Below the pieces are notes generated by a model. It was not told the origin of the DNA. It worked only from the letters and a program-made list of their open reading frames with translations, and searched no databases. Position numbers and translations under genes: made by a program. Positions 1,179 through 58,399 of a DNA stretch of 64,000 bases are shown here, in pieces. The stretch's first letter is position 1; each line of letters starts with the position of its first letter. Origin of the DNA: Acidocella sp. (GTDB taxonomy: Bacteria; Pseudomonadota; Alphaproteobacteria; Acetobacterales; Acetobacteraceae); the NCBI GenBank assembly GCA_031291755.1, contig JARLIK010000001.1, forward strand, positions 1 to 64,000, given 5' to 3'.

Positions 1179-3323
1179 ATGAGCTTCAGCCTGATCACCG
1201 GCCTCCCACCCGCCGCCGCCGGGCCTGCCGCCCTGCCGGAGCAGCTCATCATCCTGCGCCGTCACCGCCGCCTCATCATCCTCACTACCCTGGCACTCCC
1301 CCTCATCGCCGCCGCCATCCTCATCGCCCAGCCGGCCAGCTACACCGCCACCGGCGTCCTCATTTACAACGCGCCCGCGCCAGCCCCCGGCATCGCCGCC
1401 AGCCCGCAGGATGCGGATGCGCTGATCGCCAGCCAAAGCGCCCTCATCGCCAGCCTGCCGTCGCTCCGCAGCATCGCCACCCAACTCAACCTCGCCGCCC
1501 AGCCGGAATTCAACCCGCCAGCCCCCTGGTGGTGGCCGCTGCCAGCCCCACCCCCAGACCCTGACCGTGTGCCGCTCGCCGCCGGCCGTGCCCTGTCCAT
1601 CCAAGTGCCGCCCAATTCGCGCCTCATCACCGTTGGCTTCACCAGCCAGGACGCCAGCCTTTCCGCCGCCGCCGCCAACCTCGCCATCCAGCTTTATTTG
1701 GCCCACCAGCGTGAGCAATCCTTCGCCAATCTGCAGGACTCCCAAAGCTGGCTGCAAACCCACCAAGCCGCCCTGCAATCGCAACTGGACGCCACCGAAA
1801 CCGCCCTCGCCACCGCCCGCCAAGCCGCCGGCATGGTGCCCGGCATGCAGGGTGACCTTTCAGCCGAAACCGCCAGCCGCATCACCGCCTCCTTCATTGA
1901 TGCCAAAAGTGCCCTGGCCATGGCGCAGGCGCGGCTGAAATCCGCCACCGAGGGCGATGCCGCTGCCGCCAACGCCGCCATCGCGCCAAACTTGCTGCCG
2001 CTGCGCAAGGAGCAGGCGGATTTCTCCGCCCAGGTGCAATCGCTCTCCCGCCAATACGGCCCCAACTACCCTGATCTGGTGGCCGCCCAAACCTCGCTCG
2101 CCGCCATCAATGCCGAAATTGACGCTGAAACTGGCCGGGAGCTTGCCGCCGCCCGCGCCGAGGTGGCGGCTGACCAAGCCCAGGTAGCGGCCCTCGGCGC
2201 CGCGCTGGAGGCCGCCCGCACCGCCTCGCACGCGCAGGACATGCAATCCGCCCCCATCCAGGCCCTTACCGGGCGGGCTGACGCGCTCCGCGCCGCGTTG
2301 CACGCCATCGCCGCGCAGGCTGACCAGCTTGCCCAGCAAACCGCGCTCGACCGTCCGATGGCCGTCATCGTTTCCTCGGCAACCCCGCCCGCCGCGCCCA
2401 ATGCCAGCCATCGCGGCCTGATTGTGGCGGCGGCCGCGTTCCTCGGCCTGTGCCTTGGCATATTGCTCGCGGGCCTTGCCGAAGCGCTGGACACCAGCTT
2501 CCGCTCCACCGGTGACCTGCAAGCCCGCCTCGGCCTGCCATGCCTCGCGGCCGTGCCGGAGGTGAGCAACCCGCGCTTTGCCGCACAGGACGCGCCATTT
2601 TCATTGTTCGCCGAACAATTGCGGGCCCTGCGTACCGCGCTCACTCTGTCCGGCAGCGCCCGCATCCTGGCCATCACCGCGGCCAGGCCTGGCGAGGGCA
2701 AAACCACGCTCACGGTTGCTCTGGGCCGAGCACTTGCCCTCGCCGGGGTGGCCGTCGCGGTGGTCGATGCCGATATCCGCCAGCCCAGCTTCGAGGTTTT
2801 GTTCGAAACCGGCGACCAGCAGGGCCTCACCGATTATCTCTCGGGCTTCATCAGCCTTGATGAAATGACCTTGAAGGATTCCGAGACCGGCCTGCATGTC
2901 ATCACCGCCGGCACCCAGGCCGCTGATGCGCTGTCATTATTTCTATCCCCCAAACTCGGAGCCCTGCTGGCCTTGTTGCGGGAACGCTATGAGATTGTGC
3001 TGATCGACGTGCCACCCGCCTTCGCGTTGGCCGAAACCCGCGTGCTGGCCCGCGCTGCTGATGCCACGTTGCTATGCGTGCAATGGGGCAAAACCCCGGC
3101 GCGGATTGTGCAGGCGGCGCTGCAAATATTGCTCACCGCCAATGTCAAACTCGCAGGCACGGTGCTGACCCGTGTTGACTCCAAAATCCACCGCTCTTCG
3201 GGTTTCCCTGATGCTGAAATCTACCAGCCCCGCTACGGTGGCTATTTCCGCCCACGCAACGTCACATCAGCGCGGCTCCCGCCCAGCCAGCAGCACGATA
3301 TAGAACCGGCTGAACGGGAATAA
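1179..3323 (+). CDS. Polysaccharide chain-length regulator / BY-type tyrosine kinase (Wzc/GumC-like)
   Basis: This 714-residue protein has the layout of a fused Wzz and BY-kinase. There is a membrane segment at about 32-50, a long periplasmic Ala/Gln-rich coiled region (about 170-400), a second membrane segment at about 412-432, and a cytoplasmic P-loop ATPase. The kinase part shows Walker A (ARPGEGKTTL, about 503-512), Walker A' (VVDADIRQP, about 527) and Walker B (LIDVPPAF, about 607). The C-terminus carries a short tyrosine cluster (Y682, Y686, Y689), fewer than in E. coli Wzc but suited to autophosphorylation. The family controls polymer length and export of exopolysaccharide or capsule at the inner membrane. 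The start lacks a clear Shine-Dalgarno sequence. Barrel, glycosyltransferase and acyltransferase genes nearby fit an exopolysaccharide locus. Confidence 0.87.
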   Translation: MSFSLITGLPPAAAGPAALPEQLIILRRHRRLIILTTLALPLIAAAILIAQPASYTATGVLIYNAPAPAPGIAASPQDADALIASQSALIASLPSLRSIATQLNLAAQPEFNPPAPWWWPLPAPPPDPDRVPLAAGRALSIQVPPNSRLITVGFTSQDASLSAAAANLAIQLYLAHQREQSFANLQDSQSWLQTHQAALQSQLDATETALATARQAAGMVPGMQGDLSAETASRITASFIDAKSALAMAQARLKSATEGDAAAANAAIAPNLLPLRKEQADFSAQVQSLSRQYGPNYPDLVAAQTSLAAINAEIDAETGRELAAARAEVAADQAQVAALGAALEAARTASHAQDMQSAPIQALTGRADALRAALHAIAAQADQLAQQTALDRPMAVIVSSATPPAAPNASHRGLIVAAAAFLGLCLGILLAGLAEALDTSFRSTGDLQARLGLPCLAAVPEVSNPRFAAQDAPFSLFAEQLRALRTALTLSGSARILAITAARPGEGKTTLTVALGRALALAGVAVAVVDADIRQPSFEVLFETGDQQGLTDYLSGFISLDEMTLKDSETGLHVITAGTQAADALSLFLSPKLGALLALLRERYEIVLIDVPPAFALAETRVLARAADATLLCVQWGKTPARIVQAALQILLTANVKLAGTVLTRVDSKIHRSSGFPDAEIYQPRYGGYFRPRNVTSARLPPSQQHDIEPAERE

Positions 3324-3477: not shown

Positions 3478-4488
3478 TTAATCCGTCAGCCGCCTCAATA
3501 CCGGCACCCGGCTTAACAGATAAAATTTCAACGCCACCGGCAGCATCACTCCCGCCAGCATCAGCACCACCGCAAAAGGTAGAAAATGCGGCCCGTCCCA
3601 ACTCACCAGCCGCAGCAAAATACCTTTGGTCAGCCCAATGAAGATGGTGTTGAACAAATAGATCATGAAACTATACCGCCCGAGCCAGTGGAAAACCTGA
3701 CCACAGCTTGCGCCCCAATGTCTTACCAAACCATGAAGCGCTGGCATCGAGAGCAACCCCACCGGCAATAAAACCATCGCCACCGGCCAATGCGCCCCAA
3801 ACACCGCCACCATCAGCAAAGCCACCGCAAACAACACAAGCAGCCCACGGTAATGCGCGTCGATAAACCCCGTCCACGCCGCACCTTGCCGCCCCGCCCA
3901 CACGCCGCTTGCAAAAAAAATCGCATAGCGCCCCACATGGTCGGCATAAACATAAGGCGGTAGCGGCAAAAAATATAAACCTGCCGCAAAAGCCACCAAC
4001 AACCGTAATCGCCCACCATCCGTCCACAGCAAAACCGGCGTCGCAACTGACACCACAAACAACACAAATAAATACCAAATCGAGCCATCGGCACTCTCAG
4101 CCGTATCCCACACCAGGCTGGCAATCCCGGCGGCCACGCTCTCCGGCGCATGATCCACGAACATAAAATGCGCCGCCACCCATTTGCCCAGCACGCTGAG
4201 CAGCCCCAGCCCGAAAAACGGCACCAGCAGCCGCCAGGCCCGCGCCGCCAGCAACCCGCGCCATCGCCCCGGTGCTGCCATCGCAGCCCCACTCAGCACG
4301 CTCACCAAACCGCTCAGATACAGAAAAAACGGCATGTGGAAGGCATAAACCGCCCGCCGCAGCGGCTCATACCACTCCACCCCTACCGGGTCCGCCCGCG
4401 CCACCAAATGGCCAAACACCACCAGCACAATGGCCAGCCCTTTGGCTTGGTCGATATCCATCCGGCGTTGCATGCCAAACACAACCAT
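3478..4488 (-). CDS. Membrane acyltransferase (acyltransferase 3 family)
   Basis: This 336-residue polytopic protein has about ten hydrophobic segments. It opens with the family signature MDIDQAKGLAIVLVVFGHL, where H27 is the expected catalytic histidine. Acyltransferase-3 proteins transfer acetyl or other acyl groups to sugars of exopolysaccharide, O-antigen or glucans at the inner membrane. It lies beside a Wzc-like regulator and is divergent from an outer-membrane barrel gene, so decoration of the locally made polysaccharide is the likely role; the substrate cannot be read from sequence. Several ATGs crowd the start (residues 1, 6 and 10), with no strong ribosome binding site before any of them. 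Confidence 0.82.
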   Translation of the reverse strand: MVVFGMQRRMDIDQAKGLAIVLVVFGHLVARADPVGVEWYEPLRRAVYAFHMPFFLYLSGLVSVLSGAAMAAPGRWRGLLAARAWRLLVPFFGLGLLSVLGKWVAAHFMFVDHAPESVAAGIASLVWDTAESADGSIWYLFVLFVVSVATPVLLWTDGGRLRLLVAFAAGLYFLPLPPYVYADHVGRYAIFFASGVWAGRQGAAWTGFIDAHYRGLLVLFAVALLMVAVFGAHWPVAMVLLPVGLLSMPALHGLVRHWGASCGQVFHWLGRYSFMIYLFNTIFIGLTKGILLRLVSWDGPHFLPFAVVLMLAGVMLPVALKFYLLSRVPVLRRLTD

Positions 4489-46191: not shown

Positions 46192-46584
46192 TTACTTGCC
46201 GGTGAGCGTGGCGAGATAGGCAATCACGTCGGCGCGGTCAGCCGCATCCGGCAGCCCGGCGTAGGGCATTTTGGTGCCGGGAACAGCGCCCTGCGGGGCG
46301 GCGAGAAATTTATCCAGCGTGGCGTCGTTCCAGGTCAGATTGGCGCCCTTCAGCGCGGGTGAATATTCATAGCCAGCCGCCACGCTGGCGGCAGGCTTGC
46401 CATAAATCCCCGCCAAGGATGGTCCAATGCCATTGGCACCAACTGTCACACCGTGACACATGGCGCACTGACTTTGAAACACGCCGTTCCCCTTTGTGGC
46501 GTCGCCCGCGGCATGGGCTACACTGGCGCCCGCCAGCATCAGAATGCCTGTAGCCAAACTGAATAATTTGCTCGTGGATGTCAT
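46192..46584 (-). CDS. Periplasmic monoheme class I cytochrome c
   Basis: The 130-residue protein is read from ATG 46582-46584, with AGGA eight bases upstream; the longer frame to 46860 is spurious because it runs through the upstream gene. A signal peptide (MTSTSKLFSLATGILMLAGASVAHA) leads to a mature chain with CAMCH (Cys40, Cys43, His44) and the probable distal ligand Met106 in GTKMPYAG. Class I marks IGPSLAGIYGKPAA and ADVIAYLATLTGK are present. It would carry electrons in the periplasm. It follows the cytochrome-porin gene by 22 bases, so the two form an operon and probably work in series. Confidence 0.92.
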   Translation of the reverse strand: MTSTSKLFSLATGILMLAGASVAHAAGDATKGNGVFQSQCAMCHGVTVGANGIGPSLAGIYGKPAASVAAGYEYSPALKGANLTWNDATLDKFLAAPQGAVPGTKMPYAGLPDAADRADVIAYLATLTGK

Positions 46585-46606
46585 TGCAGTTTTCCTAATA
46601 GAAGTT

Positions 46607-47950
46607 TCAGAAAGCGAGCCAGATGCCGGTGAACAACAGATTATTGGCATTTGCGCTGGCCCCCGCGCCGTCATAATTACTACCGCGGCCGTTGAAGGTG
46701 GGGTAGATGATCGCCTCAACAAAAAATTTCGCATTTGCCCATGGCATGAATTTTGGCCCGCCATTGTTCCAGGGGTAATAGTCAATCTCAGTCGTAAAAC
46801 TGCTGGTATCGGGTTTGGTATTGGCGGTACCATAAGCCAGAGCGTCGCCGCTGCCAACAATGTTGCTGTAGGTTTCGGTGATGCCGTATTTCTGGTGGTA
46901 CAAATATGAGGCCGTCAACGTCACGGTATCAAGTGTGTCATTCATATTGCTGCTCAGCCCCTGAGCATAACTTGCGGGCAGATGCTGCCATTCATGGATA
47001 TAGGCGGCTTGCAGCGAGAGCGCGTGTGTGGCGGAGATGAATTGCAGTTGGGAATCCAACCCAATATCGGTCTTGTGATCAGCGGCGGTGTGCGAGATGC
47101 CGCTGGGAATCGGATTGTCCTGCAGGCCGATAGCACCAAGCTCAAACGAATTATTCGCCCAGCTATGCTGCCAGGCTAGGCGGCCATAGGGGATGACGCC
47201 CGAGATCGGGTTATAGCCGACACCCAGCGTGTGGCCGAGATTGTTGGGCAGCGATTGATAGACATTGACCTCGGCATATAACAGGTCACTCAGCGTGATA
47301 TTCATCGCTCCGTAAGCACCGAGTCCCATTACCTGCCCGCCTAGCGAGGCCAACTGCACGGCAGTTGGCGGGCCAGCGCCCAATGCATCAGGCAGGAACG
47401 GATAGCCCCAGGCGGGCGGGGTGTTCCATAAATCGGTCACGCCGGGGTTGTTGTTGAAGGTGAAGCCGTAGAAGAGCGGTTTTTTTAAGAACGTTGTCAG
47501 ACGAGCTAACCTTATGTCGGTATTGTCCCAACTAAAGGTATGGCCGATGCCATTGTAAGTGGCCTGAATGAAGGCACCCAATCCAATGGGGGCATACAGC
47601 GCACCACCGTAAAAGATGCTGGTTTGCTGGACTGACCAAGCGTTATTGGAGGGATAATCGGGGGCCAACCCGCCTGGTACTTTGTTCTGCACATGGGTAA
47701 AGCCGATTTGCGACATCAGGGCCAGATTCTTGAAATCCGGGAACATGCCGCCGGCGACATAGCCTTCCAGTTTGAACTCCCGCCCGTACGGGGTGAGTTG
47801 CGGAAAGCCGATATGGCAGGCGGAGCAAGGCTCACCGGTCTGCGCGGCAAACGCCGGAATGGCATGGGCGGCATTAGTATTCGCCAGGAAGCCGGTAAGA
47901 GCCAGGGCCGCAACAGGCCAGGGCCGACATACAGTTGAGACTCGGACCAT
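46607..47950 (-). CDS. Outer-membrane cytochrome-porin fusion (Cyc2-like)
   Basis: The 447-residue protein has a signal peptide ending AAHA (residue 30). It is followed by a short heme domain with CSACH (Cys42, Cys45, His46) inside IPAFAAQTGEPCSACHIGFP and QLTPYGREFKLEGY. The remaining 370 residues are alternating aromatic-capped strands of an outer-membrane barrel, ending in Phe (LLFTGIWLAF), the usual assembly signal. This arrangement, one heme fused to a porin, is that of Cyc2, the outer-membrane iron oxidase of Acidithiobacillus and Zetaproteobacteria, and the heme-domain pattern is close to it from memory. Related fusions exist in organisms not known to oxidise iron, so the electron donor is uncertain. 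GGAG lies seven bases before the ATG. Confidence 0.82.
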   Translation of the reverse strand: MVRVSTVCRPWPVAALALTGFLANTNAAHAIPAFAAQTGEPCSACHIGFPQLTPYGREFKLEGYVAGGMFPDFKNLALMSQIGFTHVQNKVPGGLAPDYPSNNAWSVQQTSIFYGGALYAPIGLGAFIQATYNGIGHTFSWDNTDIRLARLTTFLKKPLFYGFTFNNNPGVTDLWNTPPAWGYPFLPDALGAGPPTAVQLASLGGQVMGLGAYGAMNITLSDLLYAEVNVYQSLPNNLGHTLGVGYNPISGVIPYGRLAWQHSWANNSFELGAIGLQDNPIPSGISHTAADHKTDIGLDSQLQFISATHALSLQAAYIHEWQHLPASYAQGLSSNMNDTLDTVTLTASYLYHQKYGITETYSNIVGSGDALAYGTANTKPDTSSFTTEIDYYPWNNGGPKFMPWANAKFFVEAIIYPTFNGRGSNYDGAGASANANNLLFTGIWLAF

Positions 47951-48007
47951 CGTTTCGCTCCACTTTATTCGATAGTCGCCAATACGGGCAAAACCCCAAT
48001 ATCTTCA

Positions 48008-48021
48008 TTGATTTGGATCAA
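48008..48021 (-). promoter_or_regulatory. Perfect FNR/Anr-type box upstream of the cytochrome-porin operon
   Basis: TTGAT-TTGG-ATCAA matches the FNR/Anr consensus TTGATNNNNATCAA without mismatch. Its centre is about 64 bases upstream of the cytochrome-porin ATG. About 30 bases further downstream, reading leftward, TATTGG could be a weak -10 element, placing the site near -41 as in FNR-activated promoters. The box suggests control by an oxygen- or NO-sensing CRP/FNR family protein. The rest of the gap 47951-48187 shows no other feature. Confidence 0.7.
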
Positions 48022-50057: not shown

Positions 50058-51662
50058 TTAGCCGGTGAGCGCGATAACGGTGCTCTGCGGCGGCATGCTG
50101 GGCAGCAAGGTTGGCCAGCGGGTGGCTGGGTCATCGAAACTGGCGCTAGTGGTGGCGCCAGGGTGGCGCACCATCGCAAAGCTGGTGTGGGTGGCGGCAT
50201 CGAAAGCCGCACCGCCGATGGCCGCCCCCACCGGGGCCAAATAGGCGGTGGTGATGCGGTATTTCGAGGGACCGCCGATCTGCATGATGAATAGGCCATC
50301 AGCGGTCTCGGAGGTATCGCCATGGCTGTCAGTGCCGATCCAGAGCTGGCCGAGCGAATCCAGGTTTAGCGTGCGCGGGTGTTTGAACCATCCATCCGAG
50401 CCAAGCCCGTACTGCGTTCCGGCAGATGTAGCGGGATTGCCGGCGGCAATAGCGATTTCGGCGCTGAAATTTTTGGCGGTTAGATCGCCGCCCGGCGCCT
50501 GCAGGGCCAGCACATAACCATTATCATCGTTGGCGCGCGGATTAAGGGCATTGCTATTGCCTGGGTTGCGGCCTGGATTACCCTGGCAGGCGAGGTAGAG
50601 CCTGCCATTTGCAGCAATCGCGATGCCGCCGGGCGCATCAAAAACGCTGCCGTTTGCGGTGCTGGCTGCCGCCAGCGTGCCAACCAGGCCCGGCGTATCG
50701 CCAGGCAGATCGATCCAGGTGAGGTGGCTGCCGTTGACCTGCGCCACCGCCAGCGTGCCGGAATCCAGCGCGGTACCGTCAGTGGCGTTGGTAGCGGCGA
50801 TGAAGCGGAACAAATACCCGGCGGGATCATCCTGGCTCATAAACACCACCGGGCGGCCATCTGATGTGGCGGCGGCGATGGCGGATTTGGCGAAGCGGCC
50901 CAAAGCGGTGCGTTTGATGGGGATGGCGGCGGGATCGAGCGGGTTGACCTCAGTCGCCCAGCCGAATTTGGGCGCCTGGGCGGGGTCGTTATAGCCATAA
51001 CCGGTATTGGCGAGGCGGGTCAGCCAGGGTGCGGCATGGCCTTCGCCGAACAGGGCCGTGCCCCAGGGGGTGATGCAGCCTCCTTGCGGCGCCAGCACGC
51101 CTTGCACTGTGTTGCCGATGGCGGCTGCCGCGGGGCCGGAAATCTGGCAGAGCGTGCCGTCGGTCAGGCGGCGGTTCTGGTACCCGCCAGCCACTGTTAC
51201 CCAGCGGCCGCTGAGATATTGCAAGTTCAAAATGGTACCGCCCTGCAATTTGCCGGCGGCGTCGGGGTTATCAACCCCGCCGGGGAACACCATGCGGGCA
51301 GGGGCATCAGGGTTGGCCAGCACCATAATGAGGCGGGGGATGTTATCCTCGGCGGGCGGCGGGGCCAGCAGGCCGATCAGACTGGCATCATAGGGGAATT
51401 GCGTGCTGGCCTGTCCGGCGGTGAGCGGGTGAGGGTTAAAATTTGGGGCATCAGGCAGCAGCGCATCGCCCCAGCGCATGATGGTGAGCCGCGTGAAGGC
51501 TGGATTTACAGTATCATCCAGCTTGGCCGCTTGAGGATTGGGCAAAATCGCGACTGGGAGCGAGGCGGGTGGGCTGGCCACCCCGAGTGCAGTTTGGGCG
51601 CGGGCGAAGCCAAATCTGAGCGCTGTGAGCGATAACCCGCCCAGCAGAACCCGGCGCTGCAT
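50058..51662 (-). CDS. PhoX-family phosphatase (DUF839), Tat-exported
   Basis: The 534-residue protein starts at ATG 51660-51662, four bases after the bamE stop. MQRRVLLGGLSLTALRFGFARA looks like a short twin-arginine signal peptide (RRVLL), and PhoX proteins are Tat-exported. The mature part shows DUF839 features: TIMRWGDALLPDAPNF, GGCITPWGTALFGEGHAAPWL, YGWATEVNPLD-like sequence (FGWATEVNPLDPAAIPIKRTALGRFAKSA), VFMSQDDPAGYLFRFI and a C-terminal PRTLNLDSLGQLWIGTDSHGD. PhoX enzymes are Ca/Fe-dependent alkaline phosphomonoesterases that release phosphate from organic esters. The ligands here are not verified one by one. A longer start at 51851 would overlap bamE. Confidence 0.8.
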   Translation of the reverse strand: MQRRVLLGGLSLTALRFGFARAQTALGVASPPASLPVAILPNPQAAKLDDTVNPAFTRLTIMRWGDALLPDAPNFNPHPLTAGQASTQFPYDASLIGLLAPPPAEDNIPRLIMVLANPDAPARMVFPGGVDNPDAAGKLQGGTILNLQYLSGRWVTVAGGYQNRRLTDGTLCQISGPAAAAIGNTVQGVLAPQGGCITPWGTALFGEGHAAPWLTRLANTGYGYNDPAQAPKFGWATEVNPLDPAAIPIKRTALGRFAKSAIAAATSDGRPVVFMSQDDPAGYLFRFIAATNATDGTALDSGTLAVAQVNGSHLTWIDLPGDTPGLVGTLAAASTANGSVFDAPGGIAIAANGRLYLACQGNPGRNPGNSNALNPRANDDNGYVLALQAPGGDLTAKNFSAEIAIAAGNPATSAGTQYGLGSDGWFKHPRTLNLDSLGQLWIGTDSHGDTSETADGLFIMQIGGPSKYRITTAYLAPVGAAIGGAAFDAATHTSFAMVRHPGATTSASFDDPATRWPTLLPSMPPQSTVIALTG

Positions 51663-51666
51663 AAGT

Positions 51667-52224
51667 TTACAGCCCGCTGCCGCCAGATGCGCTTGGCCCG
51701 CCCAGCGCATCTGCCCCGATGCCCGAACCGGCCGCCGTGGCACCAGCGCCGCCCAGGCCCGGATTATAGCTGCCGACGCCGCCGACGAGCTGCTGCAGAA
51801 TGCTGGCATTGCCGCCTGGCACCGGAGTTTGATTGTCATCCATCGCGACATTGACGCGATTCTTCAAACCATCCTTGCTGACCTTGCGAAGAATCCCGGC
51901 GTTGTCGAAGCTGAGCGTCACCACCTGCTGCTGCGAAATACCCTCAGTCTGGCCGATCCGCATTTTGGTGACCTGGCTGACATAAACCCAGTTATTATCG
52001 TTGAATTCCTCATGGAACGTCGGCGGGCCAAGCAGAGCCTGCACATCCGCCTGGTTGGAGGTGCCGGGGGTGAGTTCCTTCAGATCATGGTCGGAGACCT
52101 CGATGCCCCGGTAATGCGGGGCATCCGTGAACAGGGCGCAACCCGGCAGGGCCAAGGCGGCACCAAGGGAAGTGATGCGGAGCAGGCGTTGGAATGCAGG
52201 CAACTGGGTGGGGCGCAAGCTCAA
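51667..52224 (-). CDS. bamE: BamE/SmpA-like outer-membrane lipoprotein
   Basis: The protein has a TTG start. The TTG at 52224 has AAGGA only one base away, while a second TTG two codons later (52218) has the same AAGGA seven bases upstream and may be the true start. A lipobox ALPGC is at about 25-29. The BamE core is HYRGIEVSDHDLKELTPGTSNQADVQALLGPPTFHEEFNDNNWVYVSQVTKMRIG. The last 40 residues are a Gly/Ala/Ser-rich tail not found in E. coli BamE. It is part of the outer-membrane protein assembly complex. It is divergent from the DUF177 gene, as commonly seen in this group. Confidence 0.88.
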   Translation of the reverse strand: MSLRPTQLPAFQRLLRITSLGAALALPGCALFTDAPHYRGIEVSDHDLKELTPGTSNQADVQALLGPPTFHEEFNDNNWVYVSQVTKMRIGQTEGISQQQVVTLSFDNAGILRKVSKDGLKNRVNVAMDDNQTPVPGGNASILQQLVGGVGSYNPGLGGAGATAAGSGIGADALGGPSASGGSGL

Positions 52225-57075: not shown

Positions 57076-57699
57076 ATGAAATTGGATCACGGGGATGAAG
57101 ACGATTTCTCTGATGAGCATCTCGATGATGCCCACCCGGCGGATGTAGCGCGCGGGCGCACCCGTAAATCCGCTGATGCCTTCCGCACCATCAGCGAAGT
57201 GGCCGATGAGTTGCATGTGCCGCAGCATGTGCTGCGATTCTGGGAGACCAAATTTCCGCAGGTAAGGCCGCTGAAGCGCGGCGGGGGGCGGCGCTATTAC
57301 CGGCCCGAGGACGTGCTGCTGCTGCGGCGGGTGGCGGATTTGCTCTATACGCAGGGCTACACCATTAAAGGTGTGCAAAGACTGTTGCGTGAAGGCGGCG
57401 GAGCGTTGCAAGAAGATATTCCGCCTGCGTCAGCGGATGAGCGTCTGGCGGCTGAGGTAGAACGTACGATGATCCCGGAAGCCGAGACGATGCGCAAACC
57501 AATTGAGTCCCCGCCCCAACTGCCAATGCCCGGTCTGCTGCCGGCGGAACCGGTACAGCCGATGCGCTCGGATAATCTGCGTCCGGCGCAGGCACGCGTG
57601 CTGGTGCGCCAGAAGGCCGACCCGGAGGCCGAGCGGCTGCGGGCGCTGCTGAGCGACACGCTGATGGCGCTAGAGCAATTACGCGCATTGCTGGGGTAA
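57076..57699 (+). CDS. MerR family transcriptional regulator
   Basis: The 207-residue protein is read from ATG 57076, five bases after the ihfA stop; a TTG at 57067 is in frame. After an acidic N-terminus ([17 protein letters not shown]) comes a MerR DNA-binding domain, [68 protein letters not shown] (about 37-103). The Pro-rich middle leads to a C-terminal helix ([22 protein letters not shown]). This is the conserved MerR protein found next to ihfA; its effector and targets are unknown to me. No Cys metal-binding site is seen. Confidence 0.88.
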
Positions 57700-57769
57700 A
57701 TCCGCTAGCGGTTGCTGGATGGCGATAAATCACCCAAAAGGCCGCTGATCTAGCCGGAAGCAAGCTGCC

Positions 57770-58399
57770 GTGACCTATGCCGTGAAAGAGATTTTCTACA
57801 CCCTGCAAGGGGAAGGCCGCCATGCCGGGCGGGCGGCGGTGTTTTGCCGGTTTGCCGGGTGCAATTTGTGGTCGGGCCGTGAGGCTGACCGGGCGCAGGC
57901 TGTATGTAATTTCTGCGATACGGATTTTATTGGCACGGACGGTGAAGGCGGCGGCAAGTTTGAGAGTGCTAAGGCACTGGTGATAGCCATTGGCAAGGCG
58001 TGGCGCGGCGATGCCAGGCGGTTTGTGGTGTGCACCGGCGGTGAGCCGCTGCTGCAGCTTGATGCGGCGCTGGTTGAGGCGCTGCATGCTGCCGGGTTTG
58101 AAATTGCGGTGGAGACCAACGGCACAGTTGCCGCGCCGCCGGGGATTGATTGGATTTGCGTCAGCCCGAAAGCGAATGCGCCGGTCGCGCTGGCCGGCGG
58201 CGATGAGTTGAAATTGGTGTTTCCACAAGCTCAGGCGATGCCGGAGCGGTTTGAGGGTGCAGCGTTCAAGCATTTTTATTTGCAGCCGATGGATGGGCCG
58301 CAGGTGGTGCAAAATACCGTGGCGGCGATTGCGTACTGCATGGCGCATCCGCAATGGCAGTTGAGCCTGCAGACGCATAAAATAACGGGAATTCCTTAA
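57770..58399 (+). CDS. queE: 7-carboxy-7-deazaguanine synthase
   Basis: The 209-residue radical-SAM enzyme has a GTG start with GGAAG about nine bases upstream. It has the N-terminal VKEIFYTLQGEGRHAGRAAVFCRFAGCNLWSGRE and the non-standard cluster motif C31-X14-C46-X2-C49 (CNFCDTDF) of QueE. Next come FVVCTGGEPLLQLD and VETNGTVAAPPGIDWICVSPKANAP. It converts 6-carboxytetrahydropterin to 7-carboxy-7-deazaguanine in preQ0/queuosine synthesis. It is first in a queE-queD-queC-queF operon. The 70-base leader (57700-57769) can form short helices, but I do not recognise a preQ1 riboswitch in it. Confidence 0.95.
   Translation: MTYAVKEIFYTLQGEGRHAGRAAVFCRFAGCNLWSGREADRAQAVCNFCDTDFIGTDGEGGGKFESAKALVIAIGKAWRGDARRFVVCTGGEPLLQLDAALVEALHAAGFEIAVETNGTVAAPPGIDWICVSPKANAPVALAGGDELKLVFPQAQAMPERFEGAAFKHFYLQPMDGPQVVQNTVAAIAYCMAHPQWQLSLQTHKITGIP

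Follow-up and report, generated by a model that had tools for sequence, protein, structure and literature searches.

A Cyc2-like cytochrome-porin and its cytochrome c partner in Acidocella, with an FNR-type box that recurs in part of the family

The gene pair and its features

The window (the whole 64,000-nucleotide stretch of Acidocella sp. DNA that was analysed) contains two minus-strand genes, for a cytochrome-porin and a cytochrome c, separated by a gap of 22 bp with the cytochrome gene downstream, and an FNR/FixK-type box ahead of the pair. The features of this locus are as follows.

46607 to 47950, minus strand: Cyc2-like cytochrome-porin, 447 aa, with a probable signal peptide, one c-type heme and a predicted 16-strand outer-membrane barrel
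47861 to 47950, minus strand: probable signal peptide, residues 1-30, ending in AHA, judged by inspection of the sequence
47837 to 47863, minus strand: AIPAFAAQT, the Cyc2-type motif AXPXFAR[QK][TY] with Ala in place of Arg
47813 to 47827, minus strand: CSACH heme c binding motif, residues 42-46, with PQL (PXL motif) after it
47958 to 47961, minus strand: GGAG, a ribosome-binding-like site ahead of the porin ATG, read from the sequence
46192 to 46584, minus strand: gene for a monoheme cytochrome c of the c2/cy class, 130 aa, the second in the putative operon
48008 to 48021, no strand assigned: FNR/FixK-type box TTGATTTGGATCAA, an exact TTGAT-N4-ATCAA, 57 bp ahead of the porin ATG

The original prediction had described a secreted protein of 447 residues with a single CXXCH near its N-terminus and a terminal Phe, and this description was borne out in position and in detail: the protein holds one CxxCH (CSACH), close to the N-terminus and spaced CSACH-IGF-PQL, and ends in ...WLAF. 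It had no match in Pfam or NCBIfam at E values up to 1, and an Rfam scan of the window gave nothing at gathering scores. A phmmer search of the PDB with the same protein returned only 5fid (E 0.061), which was set aside as a chance match. The monoheme cytochrome c of 130 residues that had been predicted 22 bases after the porin gene was also found; the ORF contains one CxxCH and matches Pfam Cytochrom_C (1.4e-10), and its nearest solved relatives, among the best 60 of 101, are cy, c2 and mitochondrial-type cytochromes. Elsewhere in the window, positions 50058-51851 encode a PhoX-type phosphatase-like protein (Pfam 3.3e-51) that is unrelated to the porin finding.

Predicted fold and kinship to Cyc2

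Within the genus Acidocella the porin was matched in 26 of 37 genomes, its own (2.59 Mb, 84% complete) included; in two of these (G005 and G012) what is present is only a truncated form or a fragment at a contig edge, and the copy in G002 runs off its contig. Matches were found in 14 of the 385 genomes of a class sample, own genome included, and in 88 of the 398 genomes of a phylum sample, mostly in one family (f188). Homologs from a named collection were the best 80 of 562 confirmed stretches (594 in all), many of them found via flanking-motif patterns. From 117 homologous heme-bearing ORFs an alignment of 106 rows was drawn (the window protein and 105 non-redundant homologs taken from genus and class genomes and the named collection), leaving out a fragment of 161 aa and ten sequences that shared 95% identity or more with another one. 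At two loci (L068 and L084), ORFs that lack a heme motif were dropped before the alignment and the counts; in these homologs the heme end and the barrel lie in separate ORFs, or the main ORF has no heme motif, which may reflect a frameshift, an assembly fault or decay. A short form was also seen in one genome (L026, G012:C59, ORF 1420-1839, minus strand): its 139 aa comprise the heme domain and the final strand of the barrel, the rest of which is nearly all gone, and a deletion or an assembly fault may account for it.

Structure prediction had been proposed as a check of the barrel. AlphaFold2 run on the 106-row alignment predicted a porin-like fold of 16 strands, with a mean pLDDT of 91.1 and a pTM of 0.86, and so solved a fold that an earlier run on 21 close homologs had rendered poorly (pLDDT 66). 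Confidence drops (pLDDT about 50-80) at residues 21-50, the heme motif among them. The best Foldseek matches in the PDB were outer-membrane porins and barrels, with TM-scores mostly of 0.4-0.5 and about 10% identity; OprO (4rjw) stood at rank 8 and OprP (2o4v) at rank 22. These are the two barrels that Keffer et al. 2021 matched to Cyc2 (PMC8406198; this and the other publications are cited for portions of their text). The PXL motif residues P50 and L52 are invariant in the 106 rows, and M79, kept in 100 of the 106, is a candidate sixth heme ligand; conservation of CxxCH carries no weight, as the rows were picked for its presence.

According to Keffer et al. 2021 (PMC8406198), the motif AXPXFAR[Q/K][T/Y] before the heme is unique to Cyc2, and PXFAR[Q/K][T/Y] was used there as a sequence screen. 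Of the features listed by these authors, the window protein has the single N-terminal CXXCH, a length of at least 365 aa (447), the PXL four residues after the CXXCH and, in the predicted structure, the fused 16-strand porin; at the motif itself it departs from them, reading AIPAFAAQT. The Arg of the motif is Ala in all 27 rows of the Acidocella/Acidiphilium clade and Arg in 64 of the 79 other rows. Because this diagnostic residue is Ala throughout the clade, we call the protein Cyc2-like and not Cyc2 sensu stricto.

The textbook motif, A[IV]P[AS]FARQTG ahead of the heme, was present at 12 loci of the phylum sample (L172-L183), and the small genomes, the repeated copies and the motif suggest that their hosts are Zetaproteobacteria. 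A profile was built from 11 of these canonical-motif proteins, L172 being excluded because it starts at a contig edge. It matched the 106-row family at 99.6% (E 4.8e-24, 316 columns) and the close family alone (A1) at 99.1%. With this profile standing in for the published FeGenie Cyc2 HMMs, and with the porin-like fold, the prediction of a Cyc2-like cytochrome-porin holds, and by these comparisons the protein is strongly akin to Cyc2-type proteins. In a quick tree of 128 rows, the 11 canonical-motif rows lay on one side of a branch (100*), as did the 27 Acidocella/Acidiphilium rows (100*); the clade of the window protein is thus separate from the canonical-motif rows in a tree built without named references for clusters 1, 2 and 3. 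A Biopython monophyly test on the re-rooted tree returned False for the 11, which may be a rooting effect.

Directly downstream of the porin gene, a monoheme cytochrome c gene was found in 15 of the 27 clade rows and none in 11, the contig end cutting off the remaining one. Outside the clade the downstream gene encodes a diheme cytochrome in 19 of 79 rows and a monoheme one in 15 (34 of 79 c-type together), as counted by a script that missed the diheme gene of L031 because of an overlapping ORF. A search of five of the 11 clade members lacking an adjacent cytochrome gene (G009, G010, G016, G024 and G034) showed relatives of the cytochrome elsewhere in each, the best being 43-50% identical. Among named strains, Acidiphilium sp. 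PA has the pair, and Acidocella aquatica NBRC 112502 has the porin gene with no cytochrome gene adjoining it. In three members of the genus a multiheme cytochrome gene lies upstream of the porin gene, and the full ORF in G007 contains three CxxCH motifs.

The FNR-type box in the genome and in the family

The box upstream of the pair had been predicted to be perfect, and it is exact. In the 64-kb window 0.07 exact boxes were expected, and one was present in 7 of 100 shuffles; when one mismatch was allowed, 3 sites were found against 1.70 expected, a number reached by 19 of 100 shuffles, so that no enrichment is seen across the whole window. The entire genome contains 9 exact boxes, compared to 0 for the reversed control pattern. 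Exact boxes immediately precede cydA, the [NiFe] hydrogenase small subunit gene, a gene for an FNR-type regulator, ompW and the Cyc2-like gene; one of the nine separates a chemoreceptor gene from a Rieske-type oxygenase gene, and three, inside ORFs or 3' of genes, have no apparent assignment. An exact box at L136:7606 (G000:C24:10605) is 3' of both ompW and a hemN-like gene and has no obvious downstream target. The FNR-type regulator (L136:5918-6766) carries Crp/FNR domains and, towards its N-terminus, a cluster of cysteines, CGDCGARHHGMC; its top NCBIfam model is FnrL, with 161 bits, under the cut-off of 300.

The recurrence of the box was examined in the 104 of the 106 non-redundant sequences that had at least 200 bp of upstream DNA, by scanning 300 bp ahead of start codons chosen by script. 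A box with at most one mismatch was present in 45 of these 104 family genes (20 exact) and lacking in 59. The reversed pattern gave 0 of 104, shuffles 1.6% of 2080, and other genes at the same loci 14 of 340. The box was carried by 22 of the 27 genes of the Acidocella/Acidiphilium clade and by 23 of the 77 outside it. Outside the clade, the degenerate pattern TTGAYN4RTCAA was found in 20 of 77 family genes as compared to 7 of 304 other genes (Fisher 4e-10, a P value that overstates the case because the rows are related), and each of five control patterns was absent from all 104 family genes and present in no more than 1 of 340 other genes. When the box state was mapped on the tree, at least 21 changes were required.

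A second sample, taken from the loci of the best-scoring matches only, provided 27 new loci (L157-L183), 12 of them with the canonical motif, 3 repeating earlier rows and 12 new; eleven of the last share no more than 85% identity with the earlier set, and L157 is 92% identical. Five of the 12 new loci had the box (2 exact), against 0 of 600 shuffles, while it was found in 0 of the 11 canonical-motif genes with enough upstream DNA. As read from these upstream regions, the putative low-oxygen switch is common to part of the wider family and not to all of it. Chance was considered as the origin of the box and rejected on account of the genome-wide 9 versus 0, the recurrence in the family and the window shuffles. 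The FNR-type control that had been predicted for the pair is supported by the genome-wide sites, the regulon-like targets and the recurrence in homologs; an FNR-type box is not separable from the site of an NO regulator on sequence alone.

The surroundings of the pair were also inspected in relatives. In Acidiphilium sp. STC_13 (L049) it is followed by box-preceded genes which, by eye, read as CydDC-like ABC and cydA, with two further boxes; at L054 an FNR-type regulator gene lies 1.4 kb downstream. In Acidiphilium iwatense (L055) a COX2/COX1-type oxidase is encoded 119 bp upstream of the pair, and a box, TTGATCCAGATCAA at 2875, precedes the oxidase. The oxidase region (L055:3131-5771) comprises a COX2 with a fused cytochrome c and a divergent COX1, and NCBIfam scores under all cut-offs suggest an unusual oxidase or an NO reductase. 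At the same locus a YtfE/RIC iron-sulfur repair gene lies approximately 5 kb upstream. This arrangement is not fixed, since a near-identical copy at L051 has different neighbours. The L051 copy, which bears a box, belongs to the Acidiphilium STC_15 MAG; a second Cyc2-like copy in that MAG (L053:4543-5901) has no box in the 300 bp upstream and two boxes farther up, at 3881 and 3980.

Respiratory context and direction of electron flow

A Rieske protein is expected to display the motif CTHLGC/CPCHGS. In the bc1 operon of the Acidocella genome (L140; G000:C37, near 57648-57950) the Rieske protein reads NTGISC/CPCDGS, so that, relative to the expected motif, it lacks three of the four ligands of the cluster but retains the cysteines of the disulfide; the cytochrome b lacks one expected heme histidine, and a cytochrome c1-like ORF with a CxxCH adjoins. 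A degenerate bc1 has already been described for Acidocella by Degli Esposti et al. 2023 (PMC10715153). With such a complex, electrons would not readily pass from quinol to the c2 cytochrome. A search of this genome (84% complete) for a NapC/CymA-type quinol dehydrogenase found none, whereas its E. coli control was positive; the MtrB/PioB model had no match either, and it gave none in the control genomes. The genome has one COX1 gene, a RuBisCO gene and a [NiFe] hydrogenase. The hydrogenase operon, with its FNR box, occupies G000:C18:23463-39855, and the RuBisCO large-subunit gene is on the same contig, approximately 15 kb away from the box; with this gene content, autotrophic growth of an Acidocella on H2 is possible. 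The host had been taken for a probable heterotroph, a view that needs refining, as the presence of RuBisCO and [NiFe] hydrogenase indicates that it may not be purely heterotrophic. Two short HiPIP matches (E about 1e-4) were also seen.

Taken together, the computed genes, predicted fold, homology and recurrent box suggest that the pair may move electrons to or from dissolved iron as oxygen runs out. Our main reading, to which we assign a probability of about 0.5, is that it forms an FNR-induced Cyc2-type outer-membrane conduit from which electrons most likely pass out to Fe(III); for the direction taken separately, we infer outward flow at about one half and inward flow at about one fifth. At low oxygen FNR would bind the box and turn on both genes, presumably as one transcript, together with cytochrome bd oxidase and uptake hydrogenase. 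The porin would reside in the outer membrane, its one heme lying close to where the pore opens into the periplasm, and the c2-type cytochrome would connect it, as an electron carrier, with redox enzymes of the inner membrane or the periplasm. Electrons would run from dehydrogenases or the hydrogenase through periplasmic cytochromes and reach dissolved Fe(III) inside the pore, a ferric reductase role matching the reverse operation that is thought to be open to Cyc2 in Acidithiobacillus.

Outward flow is favoured because the regulation is of a low-oxygen type that includes the hydrogenase and the bd oxidase, and because Acidocella and Acidiphilium are known to reduce ferric iron (PMC8790237, PMC8223813, PMC10715153). 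In At. ferrooxidans growing anaerobically on H2/Fe(III), Cyc2A, Cyc2B and Cyc1B are elevated, and Cyc2 was modelled as the terminal reductase (PMC7735108). Effective iron reduction by Acidiphilium acidophilum was reported only under micro-aerobic conditions, when three extra proteins appeared; the iron reduction system of Acidiphilium SJH looks constitutive, and without oxygen neither organism reduced iron (PMC8790237). A constitutive system in SJH and a reduction that requires oxygen are not what a strictly FNR-run reductase predicts. The outward reading is also weakened by the degenerate bc1, the lack of a NapC/CymA match, the 59 of 104 family genes without a box and the 11 of 27 clade members without an adjacent cytochrome gene, and the oxidase next to the pair at L055 fits micro-oxic Fe(II) oxidation equally well. 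A wider proposal is correspondingly tentative, and we hold it to be somewhat improbable: that a broad branch of the Cyc2 superfamily consists of FNR-controlled outer-membrane ferric reductases serving anaerobic or micro-oxic respiration and not of aerobic iron oxidases, and that these are the Fe(III) reductase long sought in acidophilic heterotrophs. Box-bearing members of the branch occur in Alpha-, Beta- and Gammaproteobacteria, the Arg-less form in Acidocella/Acidiphilium.

One alternative, which we regard as rather unlikely, is micro-oxic Fe(II) oxidation, in which electrons from extracellular Fe(II) would pass via the porin heme and the c2 cytochrome to cytochrome c oxidase, around the broken bc1. 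Fe(II) oxidation bypassing bc1 was proposed by Degli Esposti et al. for acidophilic Acetobacteraceae (PMC10715153); here too the bc1 is degenerate and a single COX1 gene is present, as is RuBisCO, and the neighbouring oxidase genes at L055 would find a ready place in such a chain. It is harder to reconcile with FNR-type control shared with cydA and the hydrogenase, with the absence of the box from all 11 canonical-motif genes, which we infer to come from iron oxidizers, and with a partner of the c2 class. The usual potential of a c2 cytochrome is well under that of Fe(III)/Fe(II) in acid.

It is likewise unlikely, in our estimate, that iron is incidental and that the pair serves as a low-oxygen conduit for another partner, such as NO or nitrogen oxides, copper, humics or some other extracellular redox compound. 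Such a role would agree with the resemblance of the box to an NO-regulator site, with the YtfE/RIC gene some 5 kb upstream at L055, and with the homologs in Dyella and Roseateles among the matches listed, genera that to our knowledge are neither iron oxidizers nor iron reducers; the strong Cyc2-type kinship and the iron reduction known in the genus Acidocella (PMC8790237, PMC8223813, PMC10715153) speak against it. An ordinary diffusion porin with a merely structural or vestigial heme domain is very improbable, for in spite of a barrel like that of general porins, P50 and L52 are invariant, M79 is kept in 100 of 106 rows, and c-type cytochrome genes follow in 15 of 27 clade rows and 34 of 79 others.

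The window protein resembles Cyc2 of Mariprofundus PV-1 and Acidithiobacillus ferrooxidans in its N-terminal c-type heme joined to a predicted 16-strand porin, its PXL, its length of more than 365 aa and its homology via the canonical-motif proteins; it differs from them in the Ala that replaces Arg, in the FNR-type box and in the c2-class partner. MtrCAB and PioAB also carry electrons across the outer membrane, as proposed for this pair, but are multiheme systems of separate subunits. By description, the pair is like Cyc2B/Cyc1B of At. ferrooxidans, a porin-cytochrome and cytochrome tied to anaerobic Fe(III) reduction (PMC7735108, PMC8790237). Also by description, it probably belongs to the same family as the Cyc2 homologs of Acidocella and Acidibrevibacterium, which come from the same genus and the same kind of neighbourhood (PMC10715153), and for which Degli Esposti et al. 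2023 proposed an iron oxidoreduction bypassing bc1 (PMC10715153).

The original prediction had suggested that such a system may be undescribed in this lineage. This stands for the regulation and not for the genes: a 2023 paper (PMC10715153) reported Cyc2 homologs, those of Acidocella among them, that often lie beside genes for mono- or di-heme cytochromes, and a published Cyc2 similarity network (PMC10654088) contains homologs from Acidocella/Acidiphilium, whereas no description of FNR control of Cyc2-like genes was found in the portions of the open-access literature that were covered. The word FNR is absent from the main texts of PMC10715153, PMC8790237 and PMC7735108. Some open-access texts that mention Cyc2, FNR and iron together have fnr, in the portions covered, in a reference title only or use FNR for ferredoxin-NADP oxidoreductase; a paper on c-type cytochrome production in Vibrio (PMC10937671) also mentions all three. 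The pair is real and well formed. It is a Cyc2-like variant within a family whose presence in the genus was known before, and its recurrent putative low-oxygen switch was not found described in the literature covered.

How extreme acidophiles reduce ferric iron has been described as little known (PMC8790237), and a published study addressed cyc2 as a candidate marker gene for microbial iron oxidation (PMC7029218). If a sizeable part of the relatives are indeed low-oxygen-induced and iron-reducing, counts of cyc2-like genes in mine waters, peat and soils would give a wrong picture of which way iron is being cycled there. Ferric reduction would then have one named gene pair and a testable regulator, in the cultivable Acidocella and Acidiphilium.
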